Origin: Patescibacteria group bacterium
GTDB taxonomy: Bacteria; Patescibacteriota; Minisyncoccia; Phycocordibacterales; SBAW01
Length of the DNA: 39,469 nucleotides
NCBI GenBank assembly: GCA_028864875.1
Contig: JAGWLV010000003.1
Span: forward strand, 1 to 39,469
Direction: 5' to 3'
Shown here in pieces: positions 8,025 through 35,449 of the stretch; positions within the stretch are counted from its first letter, which is position 1; each line of letters opens with the position of its first letter. The position numbers were made by a program, and so were the translations under genes. The notes under the pieces are model-generated. The model was given only the letters and a program-made list of their open reading frames with translations, did not search any database and was not told the origin of the DNA.

Positions 8025-9176
8025 CTAGCGCAGGATTCCCTTGAGCGCGTCGTAGCCACCTTGCCAGTCGCGCTCGAGGGATTCGGGGTGCGCGGCGCGC
8101 GCGTAGCGGCTCATCCCCGAGAGCATGCCGAGCGCGAGGAACTCGACGAGAAGGTGGCTCCCGCCGTAGCTCATAAATGGAATGGTGGTGCCGGTGACCG
8201 GCAGGAGGCCCATGTTGATGCCAACGTGGAGGATGACGTGCGCCATGAGCCACGAGAGCACACCGAGCGCGAAGAGGGTCTCAAAGTTCGATGCCCCACG
8301 CGAAGCTGCGCGCAACATCCGCCACGCGAGGATGCCGTAGAGCCCCAGTAAAAGCACGACGCCGAGGAACCCCCACTCTTCGGCAAAGGCCGCGAAGATA
8401 AAGTCGGTTTGGAACTGCGGGAGGAAACGCAGGCGGCTCTGCGTGCCGTACCCTATCCCCTTGCCGAGAAGTTGCCCCGAGCCGACGGCGACCGTCGACT
8501 GGTACGCGTTGTAGCCCGCCCCGTGCACATCGGTCGGATTGAAAAAGGAGATGATGCGCTGTTTTTGATAGTCGTGAAAGCCGAAGAACCACAAACCCCC
8601 AAAGAGGACGAGCCCTGCGCCGATGACCGCAAACAGGTGCGTGCGCGAGAGTCCCGACAAGAGCGCCATCCCGAACCAAATGCACGCAATGATGACCGCC
8701 GAGCCGAAGTCGGGCTGGAGCGTCACGAGCATAAAGAGCACCCCCGCGTAGGCGCCGGAGACCAGAATGTGGCGGATGTTGGCAATCTCGATGTGCCGGC
8801 GGGAGAAGTATTTTGCCAGGAGCACAATGAGGGCGAGTTTGGCCAACTCGGTGGGCTGCAGTCCTACGCCGCCGAGGTCAAACCAACTCTTGGCCCCTTG
8901 CGCTGTGTGGCCGACAACGACGAGGAGTCCGAGGAGTGCAACCACTGCGAGCCAGAACCCGAGCGCCACCCCGGTGCGTCGCAGAAAGCGCCAGTCGATG
9001 CGGCTTGCAGTAAAAAAGACTATAAGTCCGATACCTATCCAAAGCGCCTGGCGCACAAAGAAGGGGTCTTGCGGCTCAAAGGATGTCATCGTAGTGAGCC
9101 CCAAGAATGAGAGTGCGAGCGCGCAGAGGAGCGCCACCCAGTCTATGTAGGAAGGGCGGGCGGGGACAAGCGGCAT
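8025..9176 (-). CDS. rodA: Rod shape-determining protein RodA (SEDS family)
   Basis: GAKSWFDLGGVGLQPTELAKLALIVLLAKY, LQPDFGSAVII, GTTIPFMSYGGSHLLVEF. Confidence 0.93.
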   Translation of the reverse strand: MPLVPARPSYIDWVALLCALALSFLGLTTMTSFEPQDPFFVRQALWIGIGLIVFFTASRIDWRFLRRTGVALGFWLAVVALLGLLVVVGHTAQGAKSWFDLGGVGLQPTELAKLALIVLLAKYFSRRHIEIANIRHILVSGAYAGVLFMLVTLQPDFGSAVIIACIWFGMALLSGLSRTHLFAVIGAGLVLFGGLWFFGFHDYQKQRIISFFNPTDVHGAGYNAYQSTVAVGSGQLLGKGIGYGTQSRLRFLPQFQTDFIFAAFAEEWGFLGVVLLLGLYGILAWRMLRAASRGASNFETLFALGVLSWLMAHVILHVGINMGLLPVTGTTIPFMSYGGSHLLVEFLALGMLSGMSRYARAAHPESLERDWQGGYDALKGILR

Positions 9177-9177
9177 A

Positions 9178-9924
9178 CTAAAAACTTGGGAGCACCACCA
9201 CCTCGGCGCGTACTATGTTTTGTACGCCGCCCGGCCATGTAAAGACCAGCGGTTCATCGCTCTTTTTGAGTAACCGCTCCAGCACAGTGATGGAGGCCCC
9301 GCGCGCAGTGCCCTGCGTGTCGTAGAGGACCGCCGCGACCGTGACGTGTCGGGCATCCTGCGGAGTCGGGTTGCTTATGGTGACCTCGAGTGTGCTCCCG
9401 TCGGTACTCAAAAGCTGCGAGGAGAGGGGCAGCTGCGGAGTCGTTGTGCGCTCCCACACAGGCTGTACCGCAAAGGAAAAAAGTGTCTTGGTAACGGTGC
9501 GATTGCCGACATTGATGTTGGGCACGACGATGGGGATGTTTTGCGTCGGCGGCAAGTCGACCGTGCCTGTGCGCTCGAGCACGAGCTCGTTTTGGTCGTC
9601 GTAGAGGTCGAAGGTGTAGGGCACACCCTTGGCTCCGGCGCCGGGGTTGCGGTTTTCAATGTACGCGGCGGCGGTGTAGGTGTGGAGACCGGTTTGGAAC
9701 GATCGGCTCCAGAGCACTTGCGCGGGCACGGTCTGGTTGGGGCACAACAAGGCGCAGGTGCCGCCGCAATCGACCCCCGCCTCGGTCCCGTCTTGTTTGT
9801 TGTTAAAGCACGACGGGGCGCTCGTCAAAAAGCTTTCGTACAAAAACACGAGCACGACGAGCGCCGCGATGCCCGCGACCGCGGTATACAACAATTGCCT
9901 GCGCCCGCTCCAGGAAAGTGCCAT
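9178..9924 (-). CDS. Hypothetical single-TM protein
   Basis: N-terminal TM then CFNNKQDGTEAGVDCGGTCALLC, a motif I associate with CPR exported proteins. Confidence 0.8.
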   Translation of the reverse strand: MALSWSGRRQLLYTAVAGIAALVVLVFLYESFLTSAPSCFNNKQDGTEAGVDCGGTCALLCPNQTVPAQVLWSRSFQTGLHTYTAAAYIENRNPGAGAKGVPYTFDLYDDQNELVLERTGTVDLPPTQNIPIVVPNINVGNRTVTKTLFSFAVQPVWERTTTPQLPLSSQLLSTDGSTLEVTISNPTPQDARHVTVAAVLYDTQGTARGASITVLERLLKKSDEPLVFTWPGGVQNIVRAEVVVLPSF

Positions 9925-9940
9925 TGAACTATTCTAACGC

Positions 9941-9966
9941 AAAAAGCGCCTTACGGCGCTTGTCGC
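9941..9966 (-). terminator. Intrinsic terminator after 5S rRNA
   Basis: Minus strand AAGCGCC-GTAA-GGCGCTTTTTGC. Confidence 0.85.
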
Positions 9967-9981
9967 TTTTAGACCCTCTAC

Positions 9982-10096
9982 TCTGGCGGCTAGCTACTCT
10001 CGCCCTCCGATTAAGAGGACTACCATCGCCGCAAGCGAGCTTAACTTCCGTGTTCGGAATGAGAACGGGTGTGACCCCGCCGCCAAGCCACCAAAG
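9982..10096 (-). rRNA. rrf: 5S ribosomal RNA
   Basis: Minus strand GGGGTCACACCCGTTCTCATTCCGAACACGGAAGTTAAGC...GGCGATGGTAGT with terminal helix TGGTGGCTTGGC/GCTAGCCGCCA. Confidence 0.93.
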
Positions 10097-10160
10097 TAGA
10101 ACGTCCAAAAAAACTGCACGAGGGTAATAAAACTTCAACCCCTCGACTTCGCTCGGGGTA

Positions 10161-10189
10161 AACAACAAATTATTGCGACTCTCAAGTTT

Positions 10190-10191
<2 letters not shown>
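10161..10191 (-). other. 3' arm of pre-23S processing stem
   Basis: aacaacaaattattgcg (10161-10177) is perfectly complementary to cgcaataatttgttgtt (13242-13258). Confidence 0.85.
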
Positions 10192-13227
<3,036 letters not shown>

Positions 13228-33887: not shown

Positions 33888-34406
33888 TTATTCTACCCCG
33901 CCCGTAAGCGCCTCGAGCGACTTCTCGAGTTCCTCTTCGGAGACCTCGCCGCCCTTTTCTGCGACAGGTTTGGGTGCCACGAGCGTCTGCCCCTCGAGCC
34001 GGTCGGAGGAAAAGACGGCCCGGCGCGGCTCGGTCTTGATGTCTTCGCGCACAGTTTCGATGATGAGCGAGCGCAGCGCCTCCGGCATCGCGAGCAGTGC
34101 CGCTTCGAGCGCGGGGATATGTTCCTTTTCTGTCGCAAATTTAATCCATCCGAAGTAGGACTCGCGGTACTTCTCGCGCTTGCCCTGGGCGGCGCGCTCC
34201 ACCGTGTACGCGAGCGTCATGCGCGTGGGGAATCCTTCTGAAATAAATTCCGCCCCGCCGAGGAGCTTGCGGATTTTCTCGACAACCGCGCCGACACCCT
34301 GTTCGCCCACCGTGGGCACAAGGTGAAAGCCAACCTCGTATACGGGCCGCTTCTGTTCTATATCCGCTTGGGTGAGCCCCTCTTCGGAGCGCGGCGTCTC
34401 TGCCAT
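33888..34406 (-). CDS. rpsF: 30S ribosomal protein S6
   Basis: YEVGFHLVPTVGEQGVGAVVEKIRKLLGGAEFISEGFPTRMTLAYTVERAAQGKREKYRESYFGWIKF; rpsF-ssb-rpsR order. Start reassigned to MAETPRSE. Confidence 0.9.
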   Translation of the reverse strand: MAETPRSEEGLTQADIEQKRPVYEVGFHLVPTVGEQGVGAVVEKIRKLLGGAEFISEGFPTRMTLAYTVERAAQGKREKYRESYFGWIKFATEKEHIPALEAALLAMPEALRSLIIETVREDIKTEPRRAVFSSDRLEGQTLVAPKPVAEKGGEVSEEELEKSLEALTGGVE

Positions 34407-34423
34407 GAGGACACCATAGCACG

Positions 34424-34609
34424 TCAGATTTTCTGCCGCAACTTGTACGCATTCCCGTGCGTAAGCAGCCCGCGATACGACGCGGCGACTTCGGGACTGC
34501 GGTTGCGTCCTAGGTTTCTCAGCATCCGCCGTTTCGTCGCTGTGCGCAGGACGCGATGGTCTGGAAAATGCACCCAACCAAGAAAATCAACCCCAGACGC
34601 GAGTGCATA
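34424..34609 (-). pseudogene. C-terminal remnant of a DGR/CPR-type reverse transcriptase (no start, 61 codons)
   Basis: Open frame reads YALASGVDFLGWVHFPDHRVLRTATKRRMLRNLGRNRSPEVAASYRGLLTHGNAYKLRQKI*; in-frame stop just upstream at 34612. Confidence 0.72.
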
Positions 34610-34620
34610 TCAAATAAAAT

Positions 34621-34644
34621 GGGCCGCATCGCAAGATGCGGCCC
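34621..34644. terminator. Perfect 10-bp hairpin with 4-nt loop (terminator and/or DGR cruciform-type element)
   Basis: gggccgcatc-gcaa-gatgcggccc; on minus followed by ATTTTATTT; 48 nt after the target gene stop. Confidence 0.75.
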
Positions 34645-34692
34645 AAGAGCTAAGGAACCAGGTGCCAGAGCAATAGATTCCAAAAGCAGATT

Positions 34693-35310
34693 TCAACTTG
34701 CGAGGAGCGGAGAGACGTTGACACGACTGCGACCGTAGTCGAGCCAGTTGCAGCGCCAGTGCCACGACCCATCGTCGTCGCGGCGGAGATACAGGAAGTA
34801 CCGGGAGCCGCGGGAATCCCGCAGAACGGTACCCGAGAGCTCGAACCAAGTGATACCGAAGGTGTCATAGAGCCACCTGAGCGTCGCTTGCCCCTTCTCT
34901 TCAAAAAGCGTCTGGCCGAACTTCGCGTCGAGGCGGATGCCAAGGCGCTTGAGACGCTTCAGCTTTTCCTCGCCATCAATTACCGACTCACCTTCCTTAA
35001 GCCCGCTTTCGAAACGGACATTCGAGAAGTCGACTGTCGTCAGTGCAAGTGCCTTCTTATCTTCCTCGACGATTTCCCAGCCGGAGCCGATGAATTTCGC
35101 CGGATCGAAAGGTGTGGTGCGATCGACGACGAGCGCGCCGGGTCCCTTGATGACAAATTGACAGCCGTTGTCGACGAAACGCTTTGTTTTACGCATCTTC
35201 TCCTCGCTATGCGCGAGGTTGGCGATATCGTCAGGGGTGAAGCCGGCCTTGGCGGCGGTGATCATAAATTCGTGGGCAAGACCCACGCCGAATTCGGACA
35301 CATTGCGCAT
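34693..35310 (-). CDS. Putative DGR target (variable) protein
   Basis: C-terminus GTVLRDSRGSRYFLYLRRDDDGSWHWRCNWLDYGRSRVNVSPLLAS resembles CPR DGR targets; VR-like stretch of NNY codons; RT remnant directly downstream. Confidence 0.7.
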   Translation of the reverse strand: MRNVSEFGVGLAHEFMITAAKAGFTPDDIANLAHSEEKMRKTKRFVDNGCQFVIKGPGALVVDRTTPFDPAKFIGSGWEIVEEDKKALALTTVDFSNVRFESGLKEGESVIDGEEKLKRLKRLGIRLDAKFGQTLFEEKGQATLRWLYDTFGITWFELSGTVLRDSRGSRYFLYLRRDDDGSWHWRCNWLDYGRSRVNVSPLLAS

Positions 35311-35419: not shown

Positions 35420-35449
35420 ATTGTACTATATCAACTACTATACTGTCAA
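35420..35449 (-). promoter_or_regulatory. Strong sigma70-type promoter for the DGR-target gene
   Basis: TTGACA (35449-35444)-N18-TACAAT (35425-35420), overlapping the 3' end of tatD. Confidence 0.7.

Follow-up and report, generated by a model that had tools for sequence, protein, structure and literature searches.

A probable decayed diversity-generating retroelement with a retained target gene and a reverse transcriptase tail between tatD and rpsF in a Patescibacteria group bacterium

The window, the 39,469-nucleotide stretch analysed here, is contig C16 of a 588.6-kb genome in 57 contigs from a Patescibacteria group bacterium. On its minus strand, metG and tatD are followed by a 205-residue open reading frame (ORF; 34,693–35,310), a hairpin, a 61-codon open frame (34,424–34,609) and then rpsF, ssb and rpsR. 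A sequence-only reading of this DNA had picked out the ORF, the hairpin and the open frame as one segment between tatD and rpsF; all of them are present, with tatD upstream and rpsF-ssb-rpsR downstream. From the ORF and its homologues, we assign the 205-residue protein as the target (variable protein) of a diversity-generating retroelement (DGR). Its gene is preceded by a predicted sigma-70-like promoter, TTGACA-N18-TACAAT (35,420–35,449, minus strand; 11 of 12 consensus positions), and carries at its 3' end a variable repeat (VR; 34,698–34,818, minus strand), delimited by ungapped alignment to the template repeat (TR) of a related genome, G033. Approximately 50 bp 3' of the stop codon, on the same strand, is the hairpin (34,645–34,620), with an 11-bp stem, a TTGC loop and a T-rich tail (folding z = -5.4). 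The downstream neighbour rpsF (33,888–34,406, minus strand), encoding ribosomal protein S6, is intact and starts at 34,406, with the end of the open frame 17 bp upstream of it.

The 61-codon frame reads YALASGVDFLGWVHFPDHRVL...KLRQKI* and does not begin with a start codon. It matches the PHROG reverse transcriptase (RT) family phrog_1423 (E = 1.9e-8), shares 64% identity with the C-terminus of the only other RT encoded in the genome, on contig C54 (E = 7.7e-20), and aligns with residues 271–332, through the last codon, of the 332-residue intact RT of a relative, G002. These homologues confirm what had been recognised from the letters alone, namely that the frame is an RT C-terminus lying downstream of the target on the same strand. 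Pfam scans of the target and of the RT tail gave no match, as might be the case if the frame and the ORF were unrelated to DGRs and resembled them by chance; this reading is refuted by the RT homology together with the adenine signature of the VR and the syntenic intact DGRs described below, and its probability is negligible.

What is missing in cis is the rest of the element. The locus contains no TR and no catalytic RT (the one RVT_1 match of the genome lies on contig C54), and Avd, present in intact relatives, is absent from the 84 bp separating target and RT tail. Comparison with the intact loci of G002 and G003 and with the cassettes of G033 and G111 places the deletion junction, at which the TR, Avd and RT residues 1–270 are lost, at 34,601–34,619 on the minus strand. 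The sequence-only reading had likewise seen neither an RT catalytic domain nor a TR and had put a deletion near 34,610–34,620. We take the RT tail to encode no functional protein, since it lacks a start signal and its counterpart in another genome, G007, is frameshifted.

Among the 147 nearest genomes searched, 19 encode homologues of the target protein, a count that includes the genome of the window itself; across the order, 32 of 397 genomes do so (E ≤ 1e-15). The homologues include proteins 71% and 64% identical in G033 and G111, both of which have DGRs, and one 62% identical in G007. Directly downstream of the target homologues in G033, G094, G085, G224, G285 and others lie a TR, an antisense Avd and an RT; with TR copies adjoining homologues in several genomes, the question of whether the target family is DGR-associated, raised with the first reading, is answered in the affirmative.

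To compare the VR with a TR, we used that of G033, the closest DGR homologue, as the reference and scored codon positions 1 and 2. The window VR, whose 3' end is TCTCCGCTCCTCGCAA, is changed at 15 of 28 TR adenines versus 2 of 52 other bases (p = 5e-7), and AAC codons are replaced in 8 of 9 cases versus 5 of 31 for other codons. The VR of G007 gives the same picture against this TR, with changes at 21 of 28 adenines versus 3 of 52 other bases (p = 1.6e-10). Such adenine-biased differences are the fingerprint of past DGR mutagenesis, retained here in the absence of a TR. The target ORF is intact in both the window and G007, and the dN/dS between the two is 0.30/1.9, most of this signal predating DGR loss. 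A recent date for the loss, suggested by the low synonymous divergence of the VR (dS of 0.36 versus 1.9 in the rest of the gene, NG86), was rejected; the difference is not significant when only codons for identical amino acids are compared (p = 0.12–0.16 in the window's comparisons). An AlphaFold model of the target has a mean pLDDT of 88.6, and the best PDB match in a structure search with this model, a C-type lectin domain, is not significant (E = 0.46).

We compared the same interval across the genus, where rpsF was found in 34 of 35 genomes. At most of the loci examined, tatD is directly upstream of rpsF or one unrelated gene lies between them. In several genus members (L076, L077, L078, L079 and L041), the interval contains a gene judged by eye to encode an MFS-like transporter, suggesting that it is an insertion-prone site in general. 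A complete DGR occupies exactly this interval in G002 and G003, with a VR of 123–132 bp that is 86–89% identical to the TR, followed by Avd, RT and rpsF, and in both the RT ends with the same KLRQKI* codons as the window tail. Checking sister genomes at this position, as had been proposed from the sequence, therefore revealed an intact TR-Avd-RT arrangement. The order in G007 is that of the window (target, hairpin, RT tail, rpsF), and its frameshifted RT tail begins at residue 264, 7 residues from the window's breakpoint.

A tree built from metG, rpsF, ssb and rpsR places the window apart from G007, and both of these apart from the G002/G003 pair, within the genus, although the backbone is weakly supported, and many DGR-free lineages fall between the window and G007 on this same poorly supported backbone. 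A single deletion common to the window and G007 is disfavoured, given the different RT breakpoints and separate tree positions; to judge from these sequences, repeated occupation of the site and independent loss are favoured, but not proven. G007 also bears on the possibility that errors in the assembly or binning of an intact, hypervariable DGR produced the junction of target and RT tail as an artefact. Metagenome assemblies can break at DGRs, which are repetitive and variable, but an independent genome has the same architecture with another breakpoint and a frameshifted tail, tail-only remnants exist in two further genomes of other genera, and the synteny of the flanks is normal. We consider an artefact very improbable.

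The two further RT-tail-only remnants belong to other genera of the order. G199 (L148, 4,569–5,587) retains its TR and an RT starting at residue 271; in G088 (L037, 75–1,156), RT sequence from residue 285 onwards is joined to the TR. The four remnants in all have RT breakpoints at residues 264–285; as the order-wide RT search listed no partial matches, this count of tail-only remnants gives no rate. Approximately half of the target homologues with at least ~4 kb of flank have no RT nearby. The sequence-only reading had called the remnant unusual, which is too strong, as RT-less targets are common in the target family; the existence of such targets implies that surveys based on RTs miss part of the DGR-derived proteins of these bacteria. 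In G066 (L034, 5,827–6,947), a target and a TR (93% identical over 126 bp) are present with no RT nearby, and an RNase P RNA-like motif, identified by eye only, lies in the sequence 3' of the TR. In G202 (L149, 5,854–7,116), which represents another family, a target gene and an Avd fragment (residues 106–132) lie upstream of rpsF, and the DGR-rpsF neighbourhood therefore recurs.

The hairpin is a common feature of these loci. In all ten that were folded (the window and nine others), a hairpin of 10–14 bp, mostly with a 4-nt loop, lies 3' of the VR; the loci include intact and decayed ones, and the stem sequences differ. The target-recognition hairpin of the BPP-1 type has a 7–10 bp stem and a GRNA loop and lies 4–34 bp from the VR (PMC3240598). 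The window hairpin resembles this DGR hairpin/cruciform in its GC-rich stem, 4-nt loop and position 3' of the VR, but falls outside the BPP-1 definition in that its TTGC loop is not GRNA and its distance, ~50 bp past the stop codon, is greater, and it also fits a terminator (PMC3240598). It may be a terminator, an analogue of the BPP-1 target hairpin, or both.

If the hairpin served as a target-recognition signal, the target might still be live, with a TR and RT on an unassembled contig diversifying the VR in trans. Some DGRs elsewhere are known to have remote targets (PMC7517822; PMC4891356), in G094, of the same order, two targets share one TR, and both remnants, the window and G007, retain the hairpin stem with different sequences. 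The stem could, however, equally be retained as the target's terminator, and neither a protein search nor a search with the VR 3' end allowing two mismatches detected a TR matching the window VR in the assembly, which is 92.7% complete; in G007 (83% complete), the 3'-end pattern gave none either. A 2-mismatch match to the TR 3' end on contig C6 was rejected since it lies inside a membrane-protein-like reading frame. Overall, a live remote target seems unlikely.

The genome-wide search for a TR proposed in the first reading thus yielded no match to this VR, as a decayed element would predict, yet the genome is not free of DGRs. A second DGR is present on contig C54 (L002, 7,788–10,264), with a target at 9,632–10,264 (minus strand), a VR at 9,651–9,787, a TR at 9,191–9,326 and an Avd at 8,758–9,189 (plus strand; Pfam bAvd, E = 5e-13); 17 of its 19 VR-TR substitutions are at TR adenines. 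Its TR, the single DGR TR detected in this genome, is unrelated to the window VR, and C54 was rejected as a trans donor. A frameshift close to a CCCC run (~8,440–8,516) interrupts the C54 RT and may reflect real decay, phase variation or an assembly error. The intact RT of G002 matches Pfam RVT_1 with E = 6e-27; this match and that of the C54 Avd served to check the Avd and RT identities.

Why a tail of RT survives is suggested by its overlap with the predicted rpsF promoter (34,413–34,441, minus strand). In the window, G002 and G003, the -35 box TTGCGG (34,441–34,436 in the window) is inside the last RT codons (AAG TTG CGG CAR AAA ATC TGA) and the -10 box (TATGGT, 34,418–34,413 in the window) is 3' of the RT stop codon; the RT's final codons are thus predicted to contain the -35 box of rpsF. 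The pattern TTG[CA]-N18-20-TAnnnT occurs near the rpsF ATG in 33 of 34 genus loci versus 0.125 expected by shuffling, a comparison that is descriptive only since the pattern was drawn from the same loci. Because the RT end overlaps the neighbour's predicted promoter, a deletion removing the RT has a natural right-hand limit, and protection of the promoter by selection is plausibly the reason why deletions stop at the RT end. This protection would account for the retained last RT codons and not for the whole ~60-codon tail. Some other DGRs of the genus likewise have an RT ending near the next gene, for example in G011 (L116) and G024 (L130), where it abuts a gatC-like housekeeping gene, identified from the protein start only. 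More generally, DGRs in this lineage might dock directly on housekeeping promoters, with the RT 3' end joining the neighbour's promoter, so that a dead element's RT tail becomes trapped there while the target variant sampled last persists as a fixed receptor gene; repeated, as in the four remnants, this would amount to "sample then freeze" protein evolution. We offer this wider scheme tentatively and regard it as doubtful.

Taken together, the window locus is very probably a decayed DGR in which the target gene is kept and the TR, Avd and most of the RT have been deleted. The catalytic RT, near-identical TR and Avd of a functional DGR are absent from it; what marks it as a DGR target and remnant are the VR changes concentrated at adenines, the homologous targets in complete DGRs and the RT sequence in the expected place and orientation. 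The sequence-only reading had proposed a decayed DGR and named three tests (RT homologues of the frame, an RT in the same interval of relatives, and DGR association of the target family), all of which the proposal has survived. We envisage that tatD and rpsF were formerly separated by a complete cassette, made up of the target with its VR, the hairpin, TR, antisense Avd and RT, as they still are in the two relatives, and that adenine-specific mutagenic retrohoming subsequently rewrote the 3' end of the target. A later deletion of ~1.5 kb would have extended from just past the hairpin to RT residue 270. The remaining target gene, intact and with its own promoter-like site and terminator-like hairpin, would now be a fixed, ordinary gene. 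The RT tail would persist because its final codons carry the predicted rpsF -35 box, and selection would presumably act against further deletion, which would silence an essential ribosomal operon.

Decaying DGRs beside intact syntenic copies in related species form a natural before-and-after series, which allows one to ask whether a hypervariable protein survives in frozen form after loss of its mutator, and what sets the limits of the deletions. For the latter, the overlap of the RT end with a ribosomal promoter provides a simple and testable reason for the surviving scar.

Cellular DGRs of Patescibacteria (CPR) correspond to DGR clade 2 of Roux et al. 2021 (PMC8144416). The window locus is like these in its Patescibacteria-type genome, in a target with a 3' VR and no known domains, and in the TR, Avd and RT of its intact relatives, but differs in being without TR, Avd and catalytic RT itself (PMC8144416). 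Target-only DGR remnants are already known from Treponema (PMC4891356) and Nostoc (PMC7517822). Treponema denticola isolates contain remnant target genes without RT and TR; there, as in the window, a target gene is left after loss of the core DGR, whereas in the window a deletion scar with an RT tail is visible and overlaps a predicted ribosomal-operon promoter (PMC4891356). In Nostoc PCC 7120, all3226 is a VR-bearing paralogue without an RT, sharing with the window VR homology and the absence of a nearby RT; unlike all3226, the window locus is syntenic and can be compared in intact and decayed versions across related species (PMC7517822). New here are the equivalent of the hairpin in intact relatives, the predicted -35 box within RT codons, the two additional tail-only remnants, and the finding that about half of the target homologues have no RT nearby.
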